In this document: positions 13,040 to 51,670 of the stretch, piece after piece
How positions within the stretch are numbered: position 1 is the stretch's first letter
How the letters are laid out: every line of letters starts with the position of its first letter
Assembly: GCA_030429705.1 (NCBI GenBank)
Contig: JAUIES010000001.1
Coordinates: 558,001-622,000, forward strand
Source: Phycisphaerae bacterium
GTDB lineage: Bacteria > Planctomycetota > Phycisphaerae > Phycisphaerales > UBA1924
Length of the DNA: 64,000 nt
Reading direction: 5' to 3'
Notes under the pieces: generated by a model
The model's input: the letters and a program-made list of their open reading frames with translations, nothing else
Database searches by the model: none
Told to the model about the DNA's origin: nothing
Translations under genes and position numbers: made by a program

Positions 13040-13855
13040 GTGAGTGACGATCAAAGCCTCTACGCCGACCCCATGGTGTACGACATCTTGCATGCGCCAG
13101 GCACCAACGACGAAGTCGCAGGTCTCTTGCAGACCGAGCAGCAATATTCACCAGCAAGTGCCCAGCATCGGCTTTGGCTGGAACCTGCATGCGGGACCGG
13201 TCGATACCTGCGGCGTGCTCGCCAACACGGGGTCAATGGCATCGGGTTCGACATATCTGAAGACATGATCGCCTACGCCCAGCGACGCGCCAATCGAACG
13301 CGGACGATGGCAACCGAGCGATATTTCGTTGGGTCGATGACCGACTTCGCCTCACAATGCACGAAACGGGTTTCGTTTGCGTTCAATCTCATCAACACGA
13401 TTCGCCATCTCGGGTCGGATAACGACATGCTCATTCACTTCGAGCAAATGGCGAAGGTTCTTCGCAAGAAGGCGATTTATGCCGTTGGTCTGTCACTCAC
13501 GCATATTGAAAGTGAACAACCGAGCGAGGATGTCTGGATCGGTGTGCGAGGATCGCGGCGCGTACAACAAACCGTGCAGTTTCTCCCGCCGTCGGGGGGG
13601 CATCGAGTGGAGCAGGTCATTAGCCACCTCTGTGTCACAACTCCTGAATCCGAAGAGCACAGAACCTGTCAATACGCACTGCGCACTTATAGCCGGGCGC
13701 AGTTTCGGTCGCTCATCAGACGGTCGTGCCTGCAGATCGTCGATGTTGTCGATGAAGAAGGCTCGCCGATGACCATGCCCGAGATCGGTTATTGCGTTGT
13801 GCTTCTTGGTCGGCGCGACTACATCAGTCAATCGTCACGGTCCGGTTCAATCTGA
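13040..13855 (+). CDS. Class I SAM-dependent methyltransferase
   Basis: Protein of 271 residues with a Rossmann-type SAM site: the glycine motif appears as LWLEPACGTGRYLRRA, followed by GIGFDISEDMIAYA (acidic residue at the end of strand 2) and FNLINTIRHL in motif IV. The N-terminal sequence YADPMVYDILHAPGT resembles small-molecule methyltransferases that act on amines or sugars. The start is GTG at 13040, so that the divergent DinB-like gene keeps its own upstream region; the ORF is open back to 12896. Its last 32 bases overlap the 3' end of the opposite-strand exported protein. Substrate unknown. Confidence 0.8.
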   Translation: MSDDQSLYADPMVYDILHAPGTNDEVAGLLQTEQQYSPASAQHRLWLEPACGTGRYLRRARQHGVNGIGFDISEDMIAYAQRRANRTRTMATERYFVGSMTDFASQCTKRVSFAFNLINTIRHLGSDNDMLIHFEQMAKVLRKKAIYAVGLSLTHIESEQPSEDVWIGVRGSRRVQQTVQFLPPSGGHRVEQVISHLCVTTPESEEHRTCQYALRTYSRAQFRSLIRRSCLQIVDVVDEEGSPMTMPEIGYCVVLLGRRDYISQSSRSGSI

Positions 13856-16661
13856 CGCGCAGGTCGGGGACTTCGACACTGACAGATACCGGTGACCCTG
13901 CGAGTGTGAGGATGCCGTTTGCGAGCACGAATGACCGTCTCGCAGACTGACCCGGTGCGAGCGCCGTCACCGACGCGGTATCGCGAAAACCTGATGCGTA
14001 GACGGACACCCGACATGTGAGCGGGTCATCACCAACATTGACAATGTCAGCATCGACATAGACATTCGGACCACCCGAGTCCGGCCCGAGTCGATAACTG
14101 ACATCGAGACGGAGATGTTGCGAACCGAGAAACAGCGGCCGTTTGACACGCAGTAACCCGTACTCCTCTGCAGCACTGAGTTCGATGTCCATCACGAAGT
14201 CCTTCATGCCGGATTCTTCGAACGGGCTGAACATGATGTTGACCGGGAACCGATGTGTCTGGCCGCTTTCAATGAGAAACGGCATAACCCGTGGCGTGAT
14301 GCGCCAGCTTCGATCGATCTGCCCGTCCGGTGAACTGAACCCGCCGGGCTCGACAATGTAAATCTCGCCAGAGATCGGGACCTTCCACGGATTGGTGACG
14401 ACGAGTTCGTGTTCGTGCTCGCCACCGTGTGATTCGAGCAGGGGTGGGTCGACCGCGAGTTGGGTCAGGAACCTGATCAGTTCGGCATCGACACCTTCGA
14501 CGAAGACCGGGCTCGATCCAATCGGAATGCTGTGATATGGGAGATCGAGTGTGTCTGAACGCGTGACATCGACCGCGTGATCGTTGCCGAAGACATCAAA
14601 GACAGCGACAGGCTCTTGCGCGAGCAGAACTTCGAGGTTTGTAGGAATGGACGCACTCGGAGCAGCCCACACAACGAGCGCTGCGCCGCGCGTTTCGGCG
14701 GCATCGACGCGCGGTTCGAGCAACACCGCACGCACACCTGGTGCTAGATTGAGTTCTGCTGACCCGGCTCTGTCAGCGAGGCGTGCGACGAGATTGCGCA
14801 TGACCGCAGCCTCGGGCCGCACACGCAAGTCGCCTCCGTCGCCTGGGATCCACACCCACGGATTGACGACTGCGATTGACCCGCCGCGATCGGGGAGCGA
14901 GTCATGGCGCGGGCCGAACGCCGCCCACGCTTCGACTGCTTTACGAGCGAAATCTTCAGCAACACTGCGATAGCCGAACTTCGCAGCATCCTGACAACGC
15001 AGTGCGATCTGGACGGTCTGTTCGCCAGGCGAATCTGCTGTCCAGATCGGACCGGCGTCCGCGATGCTCGAAGCACTCCAATCGCCGGGTGTATCAAGAA
15101 TCAAAGAACGGTCGACTGGTTCGAACAACCCGGTCGTCGGTGCGGTGTCCATCGGCCAGGGCATCGCGAGTACCGCCTCGGGGACAAGCCGATGAAGTGC
15201 AGATTCGAGCAGGGCTATGCGATCGGCGGCATTGGGATCAAGGAGTAGCCGTTCGCTGGAGACGCGCCCGGGTTGCCACCTCTGGACCATCTGTCCCAGT
15301 CGGTCAAGAAGCGGCAGGACTGTTGGTGCCCAGTGTTCTTCGGGCGCTTCGAGCATACCCAGGATGTCTTCCTCACTGAGACCCAGTTGCTCGGCGAGCG
15401 AGCCGGGGACACGATCGAGGACCAGCGTCACCTGTTGCCAGTTGCCGCGGAGTTCTTTGACAATGGGCAGGAGCAGATCGACCGCTTCACTCCCATCGGC
15501 TTCGGTTGTGTTCCACCACGCGGGCAGAGACACCGATCCGACACCCATTTTTGCAGCCACATCGGGCAGCGCCGTGAGAAATGCTGGGTCATGCTCTTCG
15601 ACGATGATGCCGAAGCGCGGCCTGTCGATGCCCCCACCTGCTCGGGTTGGTCCCGATGCGGTCCTGTCTGCCGAAACGCTTGGTTGGGTTTCATCGGCCA
15701 GAACCCAGGCGAAATCACTCGAGTCGGCGCCGACTACGCGTACACCATCAGAAATCTCGACAATCGCCCGGAACCAGCCGAGTGCGTCGAGTTCCGGCTT
15801 CCAAGCACGGGTCATCTTGCCGCCTCGGAATGGAAACTCGGCTTCGTCGACGATTCGGCCGTCGATATCCAGAACACGCACCCGGACCGTCAGGTCTTCA
15901 CCGGTCAGGTCTCTCGCAAACACAGAGACCTCGGGTTGTTCGTCCGCATCAACGATGTTGCCCGGTGAGTTGAGGCCGATACGGATCTGAGGCAACTGTG
16001 CGATGGTGATGTCGTCAAACCACGCACCACCTGATACGTCTTCAATCGTGATCAACTCGTCGAAGCGCCGAGCGGTTCCGAGATACTCGGCTGGCTGAAG
16101 AAGCAACAAGTCGACCTGCAGGAATGCTGCGTTCGCATTGAGCACATCGACATCAAGTAGCGACCAACCTTGCTCAGAACGAATGACTTCGCTGCGGAAC
16201 TTCTGGCCTTCGATCGGTTCGCCGCGGTCGTCGAGGAGTGTGACCTCGATCGCAGCCCGGGCGTGCAAGAGTCCTTCAGTGTGGACCCATGCTGCAACTC
16301 GATAGTCGGCACCCGGAAGCACGGGTAATGCCCCCTGACGCAAGACGAGGCTCGTACTCCCGCCGCGCGTCGGGAGGTAGGCTGAATACTGTCCCGAATG
16401 TGCCCTCGTAGTATCAAGGGTGGCGAGGTTCCAGATCGGGAATCCGGGACGAATGCGCGGGACTTTGGGGTCGTGTTGGCCTCTGAGCCAGCCGACGGGG
16501 ATCGGTGCCGGACTGTCAAACTCCTCGAAATCGAAACCAGCGACCATGCGTTGCGAGAACTTCGGGCGACTGACCGACTGGTATGATGTTGGTTGTGCGT
16601 TCGCTGAGAGCGCAAAACCTGCGCACGACAGCGCCATCATGCCTCGTCGGACGGTGTTCAT
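13824..16661 (-). CDS. Exported protein with carbohydrate-binding-like N-terminal domain (function unknown)
   Basis: A 945-residue exported protein with signal peptide ([16 protein letters not shown], cleavage before QPTSYQ). Residues about 45-210 look like a jelly-roll carbohydrate-binding domain: [16 protein letters not shown], then [20 protein letters not shown] and [14 protein letters not shown]. The central third (about 350-600) looks alpha/beta and could be a TIM barrel ([20 protein letters not shown]), but no catalytic motif is recognised. The C-terminal third is beta-rich, with NEAR-Ig-like stretches. The start is ATG at 16661 preceded by AGGGCAGG. A glycoside hydrolase or cell-surface scaffold are both possible. 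The 3' end overlaps the convergent methyltransferase gene by 32 bases. Confidence 0.6.
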
Positions 16662-16774
16662 ACCTGCCCTATCGGATGGGTACGGTTCCAGACTCAAAGT
16701 CAACGGGGTCGGTGCAAACCGGGAATACAAGCACTCGACGAATGATTCGCCCATTGGAAGCTCACGGAGTCAGT

Positions 16775-17552: not shown

Positions 17553-18218
17553 TTACTCGACCCGTTCGGCCTTGGTGATGATCACCGGTTCGACCGGGAC
17601 ATCGCCGTGACCGGCTCTGGTTGTTGTGGCGACCTGTTCGATCTCGTGGACAACATCTTGACCCTCCACCACCTCGCCAAAGACAGCGTACCCGGCGCCG
17701 TCGCGCGGCTGGTCGAGGAAGAGATTGTCAGCAACATTGATAAAGAACTGTGAAGAAGCGGAATCGGGCTGATTACCCAGTCGAGCCATTGCCACCGTGT
17801 ACTTCGTGTTCGACAGGCCGTTCTTCCATTCGTTCTTGATCGTCGCTCGTCCCGGCCTTTGGTTCATGTCCGGTTCAAACGCACCGGTCTGAATCATGAA
17901 TCCTGACATGACCCGATGGAAGATGGTGCCGTCGTAATCGCCGGCATCGACATAGGCGAGGAAATTCTCGGTCGAGATCGGAGCCTTGTCATCGTTGAGT
18001 TCGATCACGATGTCACCCATCGTGGTTGTGAGTCTGACTTGCACAGCGTTCTCCTTATTGGCAGTCGTTGGTTTCTCTCGATTGGCATCGCTCATCGCCG
18101 TGCTCTGATTGTCTTTCCGAGCTTCTTTCTCACCGCATCCGGCGAGCATCATCATGGGGATCGCAAGAGCGAACGCAATCATGGCAACAGAGGCTTGTTT
18201 GGTGATCATGAACATCAT
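17553..18218 (-). CDS. Cyclophilin-type peptidyl-prolyl isomerase lipoprotein
   Basis: Periplasmic lipoprotein of 221 residues; lipobox MLAGCGEK, a linker of about 35 residues, then a cyclophilin domain. Diagnostic pieces are TTMGDIVIELNDDKAP, GTIFHRVMSGFMIQTG (catalytic Arg in FHRV and the MIQTG strand; the family usually has MIQGG), MARLGNQPDSASSQFFI and FGEVVEGQDVV. It would assist proline isomerisation during envelope protein folding. The start overlaps the stop of the upstream TolC-family gene by four bases (ATGA), so the two are translationally coupled and probably act on the same envelope pathway. Confidence 0.9.
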   Translation of the reverse strand: MMFMITKQASVAMIAFALAIPMMMLAGCGEKEARKDNQSTAMSDANREKPTTANKENAVQVRLTTTMGDIVIELNDDKAPISTENFLAYVDAGDYDGTIFHRVMSGFMIQTGAFEPDMNQRPGRATIKNEWKNGLSNTKYTVAMARLGNQPDSASSQFFINVADNLFLDQPRDGAGYAVFGEVVEGQDVVHEIEQVATTTRAGHGDVPVEPVIITKAERVE

Positions 18219-20014
18219 GGAGACTCCTCATCGAGAGCGTAGGGGTCCACATTCGTGTCGGACACACGCTCTTCTGTGACTTCTGACATCCCTTCGGGCG
18301 GTGCGATCCACCCGTCGCGCGTCACGCGCAATTGACCGGTTTGAAGCAGGAATCGGAGTACGGCCACCTTGAGGTCGGATGCCGCTTGATCCCTCGCATT
18401 TCGTGCGTTGTTCAGTTCGTTTTCTGTGTCCACAATGGCCTGCGGATTCACCTCGTCGGATCTGGTCCGTTGCTCGTCGAGACGCCGCATATTGATAATG
18501 ACCTGCTGCTCTGCCAGATTCAGTCGCAGTCGAGCAAGTTCGATTGCTCGAAGGGCACTTCTGGCATCCACAATAACATTATCTCGAGTCTGGTCAAATC
18601 CGCGTTCAGACCGTTGTGCTGAGATGAGCGATGACCGCAGACTGAGCCGCTCGGTTTCGCGATCAATCGGCCAGCCAAGCGCGATCCCAGCTGAGTAGTC
18701 GAGTTCTTCTGGGTCAAGCCCGAACCCCCCCTCACGAGCATCCGGGTCAGTGGGGATGCCGAGATCTGCTGAGACATTCAGATCTGGCAACAGTTGATTG
18801 CGAGCATTGGCGACCGCTCGCTTGGCATCATCGACCTGATCTCGGCGATTTTGCAGGTCGAGGCGGTACGCCAAGGCTGCGGCTGTCACTTCGTCGATCG
18901 TTGCTTCAGGTTCGGGGAGGTTGAGTTGGACCGCCACGATGTCGAGCGGTTGATCGAGCGGGATCGACAGCCGAACCTTGAATCGATCGACCTGTAACTG
19001 AAAGGACTCCTGCAGGTTGGCCAGCGAAGACTGAGCGCCAAGCAACTGCGATCTGGTCAAGTCCTGCTGGAACGCCCTGAGTCGTCCCGCGGAAACGAGT
19101 TCCGCGGTCTGCTCTTCGAGATTTCGCAGGCCTTCAATCTGAAGGATCTGGTTCTTGATTCGGTTTTGACTCGACACGAGGCTGAAGTAGTCTGACGCGA
19201 TATCGACCAGCAATTCGCGGCGAAAACGCTCGAATGTGCGAGCGGCATAAACCAGGTCTCGTTGTCGTTGGATCAAGTCCTCACGAGCAACCATGCCGGC
19301 GCCGCGAAGCAGCGGGATATTGCCCGAAAGCACGATGCGCGACGACTGGTTATACCGACCGGTAGCTTGTTGACGGAGTTGTTCGGTTGCGTTCCAGACA
19401 AGTCTTGCTTCCACTTCGCCGCCGTAGGGCAGCCGTTTGGTGGCTCGCAGTGAGTTGACGATATCAACTGCGTGTTGAAACGAGCCGTCTGTGCCTTGGC
19501 CTGACGCGACGACCGAGGTATCGGCGAAGAACCGAGGCCCCCACCGGTGCTCTTCGATTAACAGGCGAATCGCCGCGAGAATGTAGTCTTCCTCAGCCTG
19601 GCGAAAGTCACGCGAACTTTCCTGCGCGATGCGGAGTGCCTCGGCGAGGGTGAGTTGAATGGCATCACCTGCGATGGTTCGTTCATGGAACTGACGCAGC
19701 CGATCTTCGACATTACGAGCCTCGTCGGCGGGTGAAAACGACAGTTCGTTGGCTGAGGGGCTGTTCGTATCTGGTGCGATATACGCGGGTGAAGCCCGAT
19801 CGAGCATTGGTTGATCGCGGAAACCGATGTTTGGAGCGGCAGCCTGGGCGCCGAGCAGGGCGGACCGCTCTTCCATCATGGCCTGCGTTCGGGCATCAAT
19901 TCTGACAAAAGGACCACGACAACCGGTCAACGCCACAGTCACAAGAACGACCGCAGCAATCGGCACTGGTGGTGCAAAGAACCGCGTTTTGAGGCATTGA
20001 ACGATGGATTGCAT
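18215..20014 (-). CDS. TolC-family outer-membrane efflux lipoprotein
   Basis: A 599-residue outer-membrane factor with a lipobox (LVTVALTGCRGP) and the paired long alpha-helical hairpins of TolC/OprM proteins: one half contains LTLAEALRIAQESSRDFRQAEEDY, the second contains EATIDEVTAAALAYRLDLQNRRDQ. Such proteins form the outer-membrane duct of type I secretion or RND/ABC efflux systems, or in this phylum related envelope structures. No inner-membrane partner or adaptor lies beside it here. The MacB-like pair at 53526-56955 is far away. A purine-rich GGAGA precedes the ATG at 20014. Note 190 bases separate it from the divergent GH35-like gene. Confidence 0.85.
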   Translation of the reverse strand: MQSIVQCLKTRFFAPPVPIAAVVLVTVALTGCRGPFVRIDARTQAMMEERSALLGAQAAAPNIGFRDQPMLDRASPAYIAPDTNSPSANELSFSPADEARNVEDRLRQFHERTIAGDAIQLTLAEALRIAQESSRDFRQAEEDYILAAIRLLIEEHRWGPRFFADTSVVASGQGTDGSFQHAVDIVNSLRATKRLPYGGEVEARLVWNATEQLRQQATGRYNQSSRIVLSGNIPLLRGAGMVAREDLIQRQRDLVYAARTFERFRRELLVDIASDYFSLVSSQNRIKNQILQIEGLRNLEEQTAELVSAGRLRAFQQDLTRSQLLGAQSSLANLQESFQLQVDRFKVRLSIPLDQPLDIVAVQLNLPEPEATIDEVTAAALAYRLDLQNRRDQVDDAKRAVANARNQLLPDLNVSADLGIPTDPDAREGGFGLDPEELDYSAGIALGWPIDRETERLSLRSSLISAQRSERGFDQTRDNVIVDARSALRAIELARLRLNLAEQQVIINMRRLDEQRTRSDEVNPQAIVDTENELNNARNARDQAASDLKVAVLRFLLQTGQLRVTRDGWIAPPEGMSEVTEERVSDTNVDPYALDEESP

Positions 20015-20204
20015 TGAGTCTCCGACAGTGTGAAGGAGGAAAGGCGTTCACTGTAGCGCGTTGCCGAATGAAGAGTACCGACCTACTATCGAGGTCCAAC
20101 ACGATTCCGGACTTTTCAACCCCACAACTGGGGATTTCAATGCCCAACATGGAGCGCTGTGCCGCTTGATGTGGGGTGTATTGACCAAGCAGGAGCCTCA
20201 CACA

Positions 20205-22997
20205 ATGCCAGCGGTGACCTATGACGGACGGAGTTTCATGATCGATGGCCGCCGAATTTGGCTTGTCAGTGCCAGTATCCCATTTTTTCGTATCCCGCGA
20301 TCCCAATGGAAGGACCGCATCCACGCGGCGAAGTTGGCGGGTTTCAATACGATTGAGATTCCGGTCGTCTGGGCCCGTTGCGAGCCAAGGCCGGGCAAGT
20401 TCAACTTCACCGAAGAGAATGAAGTTCGACACATGATTGAGTTGATCGGGGAAGCGGGGCTTTGGGCATCGCTGCGGGTCGGACCTTATGTTGACGAGGG
20501 ATGGGACCTCGGCGGGATTCCCGAGTGGCTCTTGTCGAAAGCCGATGTGCAATTGCGTGCGTCAAACCAACCGTTTCTTGAGGCGTGCAGCAAGTTCTTC
20601 GGTCAACTGGTTGGCAAGATCAAGGATTTGCAGGTCACCAGCGCCGGCAAGGGGGGGCCGCTGCTGTTGGTACAAGTCGAGCAGCAGTGGATCTGCTCGA
20701 ACGCCGTTCAGGGGCAGGTCTACCTGGGCGAACTGAACCGATATCTGCGCGAATCGGGTCTGAATGTCCCAACATTGAACGCCAACAACCTGTGGCAAGG
20801 TGTCGAAAGCGAGATTGATTGTTGGGTTGGCGATACGGACATGTTGACAACCATGAGGCAACTTGGCGCGGTGCTCCCGAATCAGCCGCGCATCGTCGCG
20901 CAGTTTGGCCCTCGTGCGCCCGGGCGTTTCGGGCAAGCCATGCCGGAAGAGCGGGATCCCCGGATGGTGCAGCGTGATGCCGCCGAAGTGCTGGCTGCGG
21001 GTGGTCAGTTTAATCTGTCGCCGTTCGCATCCGGGCAAACACCGGGTTTCTGGGGCGGTCGACTGATGACATCGGACGGCGGCTATCTCACACCAGAAAG
21101 TGACCTGCACGCGCCGATCGATGTGCTGGGTCGAACGCGACCACGCTTCCAACCGATGAGGCACTTGGCAACTTTTGCCTCGCAGTTTGCTCGTGTGTTT
21201 GCGAATCTCGATTCGGAAGCGCAGCCACTGGTGTTGTTGCCGAGTGACCCCGGCGAATCGAAGCCCGGCAAAGGAGACCACGGGCCGACGATCGTCCATC
21301 GACGCGGCACACAGGGATCGGTGTGTTTTATCTTCCCGCAGCACTTGACCGGTTCAGCAAAGTCGCGCGGTCGTGTGAACTTGCTGCTCGCAGATGGGTC
21401 TGTTTTGCCCGTTGAACTTGGCGGTAACTTTGTGCATTGGTGCTTGTTCGACGCCCACCTGAGTGGCCGGGCGATGCTGACTTATTCAAGCCTGTGTGTG
21501 TTGGGTGTGACGGGATCTGTCCTGGTGGTCTATGGCGGTGCCGGGACGACCGGGCAACTTGCGATCAATGGCTCGCCGCTTGAGGTCGTGGTGCCCACAG
21601 GGAAAGCGCCGCTGGTGATCGAACATGAATCGATGCATGTGGTGGTGTGTAACGATCAGACGATTGAAACGACCTACCTCGGGAGTGACGCAGCGTTCGT
21701 CGGCATCCACGGGCTTGACGAAGAGGGCACGCCCTACGGCACCGGGCGTTACACCAAGGTCGCGTCCGACGGTACGACTTCGATGCACACGCTCTCGTCG
21801 CGAAAAGGGAAGGGTGATACCCTGCAGGTCGGCACCTGGGAATGCGCGATTGCAGAAGATCACGCCAACGGAACCAACCCACGCTACGCAACCATCCCCG
21901 GACCGGCACAACTGAGTGAACTTGGTTCTGCGCACGGGTACGGGTGGTACCGCGTGCAGTTTAAACTTGGAGCAACGAAGAAGGTCAAACTGATGGCTCC
22001 GCGGAGCGAGGATCGATTCCAAGTCATTCTGGACGGTGAACCGATCGGGTTGCTCGGCGAAGGCCCGGGCGCTTCGCGGCAGTTGCCTGTGTCGTTGAAG
22101 AAGGGTGACAGGACCATCGTGCTGCTCGCAGACAACATGGGCCATGTGTGCGAAGGCTCGAACTTCGATCGCCTTAAGGGGCTGTGCGACGAACTGTTTG
22201 ATGTGACTGAAGTCAAGATTGGCAAACCTGCTCTCGAACTCGGTGAACCAATCAGTCCGTTGTCGTTCCGCTCGCCGCTTTTTGGCGTGCGTGATGATGA
22301 TCAGACCTATCCGCTGCGTGTGCAGTGGCAGGTGGTGCATCGCAAGAAGACACCGTTGTTTGTATGTCTCGAGAACTGTCCGGCCCGAGGGTTGTTGATG
22401 GTCAACGACGAGCCGGTTCGGGCGATGGAGGTCGGCGAAACCGCTGTCCTCGTACTTGGCGAAGAAGAGCTCAAACGTGGAAACAATGTGCTCGAGTTCG
22501 CTGCGATTCATGAGTTCGGCGATGAAGACGAATCGGAAGCCGCAATCAAGGCGGTTGCCGATGCCCTTGCCAAGCAGTTTGTCGTGTGGGAAGGGACCAG
22601 TGCGGTCACCGAAAAGGGCACCTGGGCGTTTGCCAAATGGGAAGCACCGATGGATTCGTTGTTTGACGGCGTTTCCAAGTCTGAGGCTGCCAAAGTCGTC
22701 GGACCGACCTGGTGGCGTGTACCGATTGAAGGCGTCAACGAAGGTGAAGCAATTCGTTTAACACTGACCGGGCTTACCAAGGGGCAGATTTATCTCAACG
22801 GCGAAGACCTCTGCCGTTATTTCGTTGCGACTGCAGATGGCTCCACCGTCCCCCCCATGGACTCGGTCGTGCTGCACGCATCGATGTTGCATGAGGGTGA
22901 GAACGAACTGGTGATCTTTGACGAACACGGCGGCAATCCAACCAAATGCAAATTCGCGGCTGAAGGTATTGACGATGTGTTGCGGGCGACAATCTAG
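20205..22997 (+). CDS. GH35-family beta-galactosidase homologue with altered catalytic residues
   Basis: A 930-residue protein with the full N-terminal TIM barrel of GH35 (SASIPFFRIPRSQWKDRI, GPYVDEGWDLGGIPEWLL, GQTPGFWGG) followed by beta-sandwich domains. The active-site motifs differ. The acid/base motif VENEYG reads VEQQWI (residues 158-163, Gln161 for Glu). The nucleophile motif TEFW reads AQFG (Gln233 for Glu). WNxHEP reads WARCEP, and the CAEW motif reads VDEGW. So the fold is GH35 but hydrolysis by the usual double displacement is unlikely. No signal peptide is seen. The start is ATG at 20205 because AGGAG sits at 20191-20195; the frame is open to 20061. It may bind sugars or have another chemistry. 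Confidence 0.8.
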   Translation: MPAVTYDGRSFMIDGRRIWLVSASIPFFRIPRSQWKDRIHAAKLAGFNTIEIPVVWARCEPRPGKFNFTEENEVRHMIELIGEAGLWASLRVGPYVDEGWDLGGIPEWLLSKADVQLRASNQPFLEACSKFFGQLVGKIKDLQVTSAGKGGPLLLVQVEQQWICSNAVQGQVYLGELNRYLRESGLNVPTLNANNLWQGVESEIDCWVGDTDMLTTMRQLGAVLPNQPRIVAQFGPRAPGRFGQAMPEERDPRMVQRDAAEVLAAGGQFNLSPFASGQTPGFWGGRLMTSDGGYLTPESDLHAPIDVLGRTRPRFQPMRHLATFASQFARVFANLDSEAQPLVLLPSDPGESKPGKGDHGPTIVHRRGTQGSVCFIFPQHLTGSAKSRGRVNLLLADGSVLPVELGGNFVHWCLFDAHLSGRAMLTYSSLCVLGVTGSVLVVYGGAGTTGQLAINGSPLEVVVPTGKAPLVIEHESMHVVVCNDQTIETTYLGSDAAFVGIHGLDEEGTPYGTGRYTKVASDGTTSMHTLSSRKGKGDTLQVGTWECAIAEDHANGTNPRYATIPGPAQLSELGSAHGYGWYRVQFKLGATKKVKLMAPRSEDRFQVILDGEPIGLLGEGPGASRQLPVSLKKGDRTIVLLADNMGHVCEGSNFDRLKGLCDELFDVTEVKIGKPALELGEPISPLSFRSPLFGVRDDDQTYPLRVQWQVVHRKKTPLFVCLENCPARGLLMVNDEPVRAMEVGETAVLVLGEEELKRGNNVLEFAAIHEFGDEDESEAAIKAVADALAKQFVVWEGTSAVTEKGTWAFAKWEAPMDSLFDGVSKSEAAKVVGPTWWRVPIEGVNEGEAIRLTLTGLTKGQIYLNGEDLCRYFVATADGSTVPPMDSVVLHASMLHEGENELVIFDEHGGNPTKCKFAAEGIDDVLRATI

Positions 22998-49459: not shown

Positions 49460-50464
49460 TCAGGGTTTGACTGATTCGTGCGAGCGTGGCTGCTGTGCGT
49501 CAATCCAACGCTTCATGGCCGGTTTCGGGCTTCGATCGGCGTTGAACAGGCCCCAGTGCTTTTCGACCTCGTTGGGGTGCGAGCCGCCTTTCCAGTTTTC
49601 ATCAAACGCTGCAAAGAAGAAATGGGGCATGCGTGCTTCGTCAGCCCAGTGGCGATAGGCACGGTAGAAGAGTTCCTGTTCGCCCCCACCCGCTTTGCCT
49701 TTGATCAACTTGGCCTGCTCGCCTTCAGTGTGCACTGTGGTTGCCCAACCTGTTTCACAATGCACAATCATTTTCTCGGGATGACGCTGCTGAATATCTC
49801 TAATTTGCTCACGGGTCCAGTTCAACGCCTGATGCAATTGCTGACCGTTCCACATGGCATACGCATGTAGGCCGATGAAATCACATGCTTCTGCGACGCG
49901 GGTCGACTCGGGCTTGTTCCAGAAATTGTAATCGTCGCAGGTCGTGACCGGAACACTCGTCGCCGAGCGAACCTGGGCGAGGTAGTCGAGCAAGGTGTCC
50001 ATGTTGACGCGGTGACCTGACCAGAAAACCTGCGTCTCGTTTCCGACATTAATCGCAGCCACAACATCGGGGTAGGCATTGGCGATGCGAATTGCATTCG
50101 CCACCTCGGATCGGTTGGCCGATGTGGCTTCGGGCGAAGACTCGGTCGCGATCCACGCGCCGAGCATCATTCTGATCGGCAGGTTGTCTTCTCTGATGAT
50201 GGCGCAGACGCGCTCAGCAGATCGAGTGCCATAGAGACGAATGAACTGCCAATGATCTTTGATAATGTGTAGATCTTCGCGGAGTTGTTCGTTCGTCGGA
50301 GCATCGCCATCCGGCGATTGGCCGTCGCGGTATTCGCCATACGCGATGCCCGCTCCCGCCCACTCACCTTCATTCGAGAAGTCAATAATCCGCTGTTCGT
50401 CAGCCTGTGCGAAAGAAATCGACGAAACCAAAGCAATACAGAACAACAGGAAGAGCGTTTTCAT
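49460..50464 (-). CDS. GH17-like exo-beta-1,3-glucanase family protein
   Basis: Secreted protein of 334 residues with a signal peptide (FLLFCIALVSSISFAQ) and a TIM barrel of the GH17 type. FIRLYGTR opens the barrel, Glu143 in INVGNETQVFW is the likely acid/base (Asn-Glu motif), and Glu237 in VHCETGWATTV is the likely nucleophile. The end of the barrel is FFFAAFDENWKGG. It should cleave beta-1,3-glucans such as laminarin. The start is ATG at 50464 with a weak ribosome site; the frame is open to 50680. The sugar isomerase gene lies upstream on the same strand, 69 bases away. Confidence 0.82.
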   Translation of the reverse strand: MKTLFLLFCIALVSSISFAQADEQRIIDFSNEGEWAGAGIAYGEYRDGQSPDGDAPTNEQLREDLHIIKDHWQFIRLYGTRSAERVCAIIREDNLPIRMMLGAWIATESSPEATSANRSEVANAIRIANAYPDVVAAINVGNETQVFWSGHRVNMDTLLDYLAQVRSATSVPVTTCDDYNFWNKPESTRVAEACDFIGLHAYAMWNGQQLHQALNWTREQIRDIQQRHPEKMIVHCETGWATTVHTEGEQAKLIKGKAGGGEQELFYRAYRHWADEARMPHFFFAAFDENWKGGSHPNEVEKHWGLFNADRSPKPAMKRWIDAQQPRSHESVKP

Positions 50465-50532
50465 GCTGGCGATCTTTCGATTAATGGATTCACGGAGCTG
50501 AATCTTGGCTTCACAGAAAACACCGAGACCGG

Positions 50533-51489
50533 CTACAGGTTTGCAGCCTCGATGGTTGCCACGGTCTTCTCGAGCCCGATCCTGGTTACTTCGGCGTGAT
50601 CGGATGCCCAGTATGACGGGTTGTAGAGTTCGAGCGAGATACATCCGGCGTAGCCGATCGACTTCAAGTCGCGGAGGCACTGACCCAGCGGCAGAATGCC
50701 ATCGCCCGGATACACCCGGTGCTTGTCTTCGAGTTGGTCCTTTGGCGGCTGAGCGGGTGCGTCGTTGTATTGGAAGATGGCGATGAAATCACCGCGTAAG
50801 TGTTTGAGCCCATGAAACCCGGAGTTGCCGATGAGCATGTGGAAGACATCGGGAATAATCTTGGCTTTGGGGTGGTCGGCATCGATCGCCACCTGTGCCG
50901 CCTGCCCCATGGTGCGAGCGCCTTCGAGGAACTGGACGAACACCAGTGCGGGGTTGATGCCATAGTCATTGAGTCCGATCTCAAGGATCTCGCGATAACG
51001 GGCAGCCGCCCAGAACGGGTCAAACTCGCGCCACGGTCGGGCGGGCTGAGGGATGGTCTGGATATGCTCTGCTCCGATTGCAGCCGCCTGCCGCATGCGT
51101 CGGCGTGAATCAACCAATGACGCGTCAAATGCTTCACGGGTGGGCGGAATGGCGTTCCACAAGCCGATCACGCTGGGGACGAACAACCCTGCGTCTTTGA
51201 TGCGCTTGCCCAGATCACCCAGATCTCCACCATTTGATTCATATTCGTGAATCTCGCCCTCCCAAGGCTCGATTGCATCAAATCCGGTTTGTGAAGCGAA
51301 TTTGATCTTGTCAAGCAGACTTGCCGGGCGAATGGTGGCCGTATCAAGGCAGATCGGCCACGGGCTACGCCCCCCCTGAAACGATTTCTTGACTGATACG
51401 ACTGCGTCTGGTTGCGATGATGCTGACCGCGCAAGGGCTGGAACTGCCAGCCCGGCAACGCCACCGGTGAGAAATGACCGTCTTTGCAT
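50533..51489 (-). CDS. Tat-exported sugar phosphate isomerase/epimerase-like TIM-barrel protein
   Basis: A 318-residue xylose-isomerase-like TIM-barrel protein (AP endonuclease 2 superfamily). The N-terminus MQRRSFLTGGVAGLAV is a Tat signal. The body contains ASQTGFDAIEPWEGE, IIPDVFHMLIG and GCISLELYNPSYW, the family's metal-ligand positions (Glu/Asp/His). These proteins isomerise or epimerise sugars, and in planctomycetes related enzymes accompany DUF1080 proteins. The start is ATG at 51489 just after GAGGAGG. An ATG at 51507 is possible but less well placed. It is divergent from the DUF1080-SASA gene (260-base gap). Confidence 0.82.
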   Translation of the reverse strand: MQRRSFLTGGVAGLAVPALARSASSQPDAVVSVKKSFQGGRSPWPICLDTATIRPASLLDKIKFASQTGFDAIEPWEGEIHEYESNGGDLGDLGKRIKDAGLFVPSVIGLWNAIPPTREAFDASLVDSRRRMRQAAAIGAEHIQTIPQPARPWREFDPFWAAARYREILEIGLNDYGINPALVFVQFLEGARTMGQAAQVAIDADHPKAKIIPDVFHMLIGNSGFHGLKHLRGDFIAIFQYNDAPAQPPKDQLEDKHRVYPGDGILPLGQCLRDLKSIGYAGCISLELYNPSYWASDHAEVTRIGLEKTVATIEAANL

Positions 51490-51670
51490 GGGAGCCTCCT
51501 CGTTCAAATCGTGCTACGCAGCCTATACCAAAACGCGCCTCAGAGTGCAGAGGCGCCCCGACGGGCATTGGCTCGCGTTGAATGATGACAGCCCAAATCC
51601 ATCGACACATCCCGAATCCTGTTGCGAACCTGTCCGAAATCCAAACTTTCAAAGACCGAGGCCGATCATA

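Follow-up and report, generated by a model that had tools for sequence, protein, structure and literature searches.

Glycosidase-fold pseudoenzymes are already known. Heparanase 2, for instance, has a catalytically dead glycosidase fold, fulfils a non-catalytic role and counteracts the active heparanase 1 (PMC12406646). Among the GH35 beta-galactosidases, the human enzyme GLB1 has Glu188 and Glu268 as its catalytic pair (PMC12222868), and Y270 is one of its galactose-contact residues (PMC6881353). Here, we describe a GH35 protein encoded in a 64,000-nucleotide stretch of a Phycisphaerae bacterium genome (GCA_030429705.1, contig JAUIES010000001.1, positions 558,001 to 622,000), referred to below as the window. 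The families compared are labelled f1 (the window's own family, order Phycisphaerales), f2, f3, f4, f5, f14 and f24.

With the characterised GH35 beta-galactosidases (GLB1, 3thc; the Bacteroides protein 3d3a; 4mad) the window protein has in common the barrel framework, the domain order and the GP-x-x-GG-P-WL motif, but it is longer, has no signal peptide and has lost the acid/base residue, the nucleophile and the galactose contacts. Close counterparts are the intact long-form GH35 proteins of f14, f24 and part of f2 and f3 (L070 and L061, for example), which are cytosolic, have the same length and architecture and align with it over the full length. Unlike the window protein, these retain NENEY or ENEW, TEF or TEY and, mostly, CAEW. 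The best NCBIfam model, NF041127 (archaeal exo-beta-D-glucosaminidase GH35; 5gsm), matched the N-terminal 110 residues with 84.1 bits against an equivalog cut-off of 1500, so the protein is not a member. It resembles heparanase 2 in its lost catalysis; in contrast to that case, the genomes checked hold no other GH35. In the literature searched, which covered few subscription journals, a near-universal, usually single-copy and repeatedly inactivated GH35 of a bacterial family did not turn up, and nothing relevant was seen on pseudoenzymes of GH35 or of planctomycetes.

Architecture of the GH35 protein

The gene starts with ATG at 20205 and its stop codon ends at 22997. The following features were assigned:

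20205..22997, forward strand: putative pseudo-GH35 coding sequence, 930 aa, no signal peptide (open reading frame and Pfam matches; Met1 kept in 44/44)
20232..21173, forward strand: GH35 (beta/alpha)8 barrel domain, residues 10-323 (PF01301, 9.5e-53; hhalign to GLB1, probability 100)
21903..22196, forward strand: BetaGal_ABD_1 all-beta domain, residues 567-664 (PF21317, 1.1e-7)
22704..22904, forward strand: BetaGal_gal-bd, galactose-binding-type domain, residues 834-900 (PF21467, 1.8e-6)

The PF01301 match (180.3 bits against a cut-off of 27) covers positions 1-317 of the 319 in the profile, as in a full-length GH35 member, and both smaller domains exceed their Pfam cut-offs. Because the GH35 domain begins right at Met1, and this Met1 (20205) is conserved in all 44 sequences of f1, there is no room for a signal peptide, which bears out what the first-pass annotation had noticed; the protein is probably cytosolic, as was also proposed there. 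A longer reading frame from TTG at 20061 is unlikely to mark the true start, given the conservation of the Met1 at 20205.

Loss of the catalytic pair and of the galactose subsite

Three positions or segments of the barrel are central to what follows:

20679..20696, forward strand: segment E159-Q-Q-W162-I-C164; E159, W162 and C164 are invariant or nearly so in the degenerate clade, Q160 and Q161 vary
20685..20687, forward strand: Gln161, encoded by CAG, aligned with the acid/base residue E188 of GLB1 (phmmer, MAFFT, hhalign)
20901..20903, forward strand: Gln233, encoded by CAG, aligned with the nucleophile E268 of GLB1 (phmmer, MAFFT, hhalign)

The pairing of Q161 with E188 and of Q233 with E268 was obtained in a phmmer comparison with human GLB1 (3thc; 5e-41), in a MAFFT alignment of approximately 110 relatives and in a profile-profile alignment with hhalign (probability 100, E 3.8e-70). 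Pairwise, multiple and profile-profile alignments thus uphold the initial observation that both catalytic Glu are replaced by Gln. The accompanying changes of WNxHEP to WARCEP and of CAEW to DEGW are likewise real, although HEP retains its Glu (E60). E60 is present in intact members too, and the same is true of E159, the Glu two residues ahead of the acid/base position. Another Glu at the catalytic positions would have overturned the original interpretation; none of the three methods placed one there, and strands 4 and 7 carry no candidate whose conservation is new.

As galactose contacts of GLB1 we take Y83, E129, N187, Y270, Y306 and Y333. In the window protein these correspond to P53, G99, Q160, G235, S272 and L301, so that all six are lost, and the same positions vary freely among the relatives. 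An acid/base Glu at the end of strand 4, a nucleophile Glu at the end of strand 7 and the galactose contacts are therefore all missing. The absence of both Glu and of most of the galactose subsite means that the protein, as judged from its sequence, cannot act as a classical retaining beta-galactosidase, in agreement with what had been concluded at first.

Spread of the loss and conservation of the remaining protein

A long GH35 protein without signal peptide is encoded in 159 of 163 f1 genomes (111 of the 112 of good quality). The window's genome and 11 of 12 other f1 genomes checked carry no GH35 besides it; the remaining one, G461, has none at all. A role as partner of an active GH35 paralogue was ruled out, as no second GH35 occurs in the genomes checked. 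Both catalytic Glu are absent from 35 of the 44 aligned f1 sequences, one is left in eight and both are left in a single sequence; in f4, 14/16 sequences lack both. The acid/base position (Q in 13 f1 sequences, G in 10, H and A in four each, others in the rest) is more variable than 86% of the positions in the protein. At the nucleophile position Asp prevails (32/44, followed by Q and E with four each, H with one, and others), which suggests that some pressure is left there and counts against the explanation favoured below. The exact Gln/Gln pair is confined to the window and L091 among 45 f1 sequences, and the three nearest species, its sisters, have Gln/Asp. Gln/Gln thus does not mark a conserved subfamily, which had been raised earlier as something to be looked for.

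Non-synonymous to synonymous ratios (dN/dS, Nei-Gojobori) of close degenerate pairs were mostly 0.04-0.14, the highest being 0.25 (L009/L010); two intact f14 pairs gave 0.11 and 0.18. Constraint on the barrel is at least as strong as on the remaining protein. Such strong purifying selection in spite of the lost active site indicates that the protein is still used. Catalytic loss shared across the clade and purifying selection on the rest, the two marks of a pseudoenzyme clade, are thus both found, and together they exclude a chance origin of the substitutions.

Several other residues are conserved instead. W162, C164, E183, N192, N194, W207, R218, Q219 and Q268 are each kept in 43-44 of 44 f1 sequences; position 162 is Trp in f1 and Tyr in intact f14 members. 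Going by strand order, several of them would lie on the ligand side of the barrel, where strands 4, 5, 6 and 8 have their C-terminal ends. W162, R179, R218, W412 and, mostly, E183 are already found in intact f2 and f3 members, and hence the changes to W162, R179, R218 and W412 preceded the catalytic loss. These early-fixed residues agree with a second role already established by then, although a change of substrate could also account for them. A non-catalytic role may therefore predate the loss of catalysis.

When 392 genomes of the phylum were searched, the C-terminal part found no close relative beyond the class (the best match was a weak one, 4e-11). A scan of genome contigs returned two relatives only. 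The GH35-like protein of f4 genus g41 (L104-L107) is more eroded, with similarity to the window protein over approximately residues 1-238 only; genes for a divergent TolC and an HlyD-type protein still adjoin it. Some f4 members with small genomes yielded no match at all.

Ancestry and number of losses

Both Glu are intact in 20/24 f14 sequences, 2/2 from f24, 4/6 from f3 and 1/4 from f2. The long-form orthologues of f14 and f24, which belong to the same class but to another order, share 27-31% identity with the window protein and have mostly kept NENEY, TEF and CAEW. The three motifs are likewise kept in L045 (f2) and in L053, L057 and L061 (f3), while L059 (f3) has both Glu and no CAEW. Separate losses are seen within f14, in L072, L086 and L090, with NENQY, NENGY, and CSF for TEF.

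A tree computed with the catalytic columns removed requires at least six changes of the catalytic state; its deep nodes are only partly resolved, so that it is uncertain how many losses occurred. The changes fall inside f14, f2 and f3 and in the group made up of f1, f4 and f5. The intact sister orthologues and these repeated changes suggest that catalysis was probably lost several times in a gene that was itself retained.

Proposed explanation and its alternatives

We favour the following explanation, to which we assign a probability of roughly 0.7: the protein belongs to a clade-wide, cytosolic pseudo-GH35 of the Phycisphaerales, retained for a non-hydrolytic role older than the loss of catalysis. 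A long cytosolic GH35 would have been inherited vertically in the order, in most cases with no second GH35 in the genome. Its catalytic machinery and galactose subsite would then have decayed in several lineages as the gene stayed under purifying selection. The role may consist in binding a ligand that is not a terminal beta-galactoside, or in acting as a scaffold or regulator, and would have existed first, with catalysis lost afterwards. A more specific version, in which the only GH35 turned non-enzymatic across the order by parallel losses, the role again coming first, and now works in the cytosol as a sensor or regulator linked to the divergent TolC-type export gene, is tentative and on balance rather doubtful.

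It seems improbable that the protein remains catalytic by a different chemistry, in which, for instance, Asp at the nucleophile position of relatives, or one of the acidic residues E60, E159 and D205 of the barrel face, would support another reaction. The C-terminal face of the barrel does keep E60, E159, N192, N194, D/E205 and Q268 invariant, and the Asp that prevails at position 233 in f1 would suit such a reaction. However, E60, E159, N194, D/E205 and Q268 occur in intact members as well and hence are not replacements, position 233, a Gln in the window, is occupied by Q, H, K or E elsewhere, and position 161 accommodates many residues; catalytic residues that differ between sister genera would be unusual for an enzyme. 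The first-pass annotation had left the choice between a pseudoenzyme and another chemistry: the former gains support from the clade, and nothing positive was found for the latter. It had also suggested binding of sugar, and a lectin using the old galactose pocket appears to us about equally improbable. The fold and the galactose-binding-type C-terminal domain are retained, and aromatic residues near the pocket mouth (W162, W207 and position 197, which is W, F or Y) are conserved; nevertheless, a true sugar subsite would be expected to be conserved, and the counterparts of the GLB1 contacts are lost and freely varying, which weakens the suggestion.

A decaying gene devoid of function is far less probable still. 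Lost catalytic residues would be expected of it, and the shortened similarity in g41 and the missing matches in small f4 genomes point the same way, but dN/dS values of 0.04-0.25 already contradict decay for the window's family, as do open frames of approximately 930 aa in 159/163 genomes and a conserved promoter-like element. That the alignments are in error, the protein being an ordinary enzyme with its true catalytic Glu elsewhere, is hardly conceivable. AlphaFold2 models computed from three input sequences were poor (pLDDT 43 and 44 for the whole protein and the barrel) and thus unusable as a structural check on the alignments; three alignment methods nonetheless concur, members with intact motifs bridge the gap to the enzymes as intermediates, and strands 4 and 7 show no newly conserved Glu.

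The pseudo-GH35 reading has a practical side. Annotation pipelines will label the protein a beta-galactosidase, and nearly all genomes of a large planctomycete family will be credited with an activity that is probably absent. The families also make up a natural series from intact to degenerate forms of one vertically inherited, usually single-copy gene, which is rare, and the series could show whether a non-catalytic role precedes an enzyme's loss of activity.

TolC-type neighbour and upstream element

Upstream of the GH35 gene the following features were assigned:

18215..20014, reverse strand: TolC-type outer membrane efflux protein, 599 aa (PF02321, 7.7e-19); divergent, 190 bp between start codons
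20061..20089, forward strand: predicted promoter-like element TTGCCG-17-TACTAT; also present, at a similar distance, in the three nearest relatives

In profile searches, a tolC-type gene adjoined the GH35 gene at 40 of the 43 f1 loci with enough upstream sequence, at 14/16 f4 loci and at 3/6 f3 loci, and at none of the f2, f5, f14 or f24 loci. The three f1 loci of this set that lack the divergent tolC, L117, L118 and L124, all belong to genus g19. The second-commonest f1 neighbour was found at 15 loci in a filtered scan of open reading frames. A gene for an HlyD-type adaptor follows tolC in f3, at most f4 loci and at some f1 loci. Since tolC accompanies intact (f3) and degenerate GH35 genes alike, the pairing was not caused by the loss, and its absence from f2, f5 and f14 indicates that the neighbour is dispensable to the protein in some lineages. 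A functional link between the two proteins is possible; as a cytosolic protein cannot contact an outer membrane channel, any such link would have to be regulatory or metabolic.

The promoter-like pattern was present at 22 of 45 f1 loci against 0.5 expected in shuffles, a count biased by the pattern having been written after the f1 sequences were seen; in f14, whose sequences were unseen at that point, it was present at 10 of 27 against 0.6. A consensus promoter scan upstream of the GH35 gene returned nothing, TTGCCG-17-TACTAT lying below its threshold, and a search for Rfam elements in the region found none. The end of the tolC gene is overlapped by four bases by a gene for a cyclophilin-type peptidyl-prolyl isomerase with a lipoprotein-like N-terminus (17553-18218, reverse strand), and the 976-aa protein encoded at 13824-16754 (reverse strand) matches no Pfam family and has an N-terminus of the secretion type. 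Elsewhere in the window, a secreted, glycosidase-like protein of barrel type that matches GH2_C marginally (49460-50680, reverse strand) lies beside a sugar-isomerase-like protein with a Tat-like N-terminus (50533-51507).
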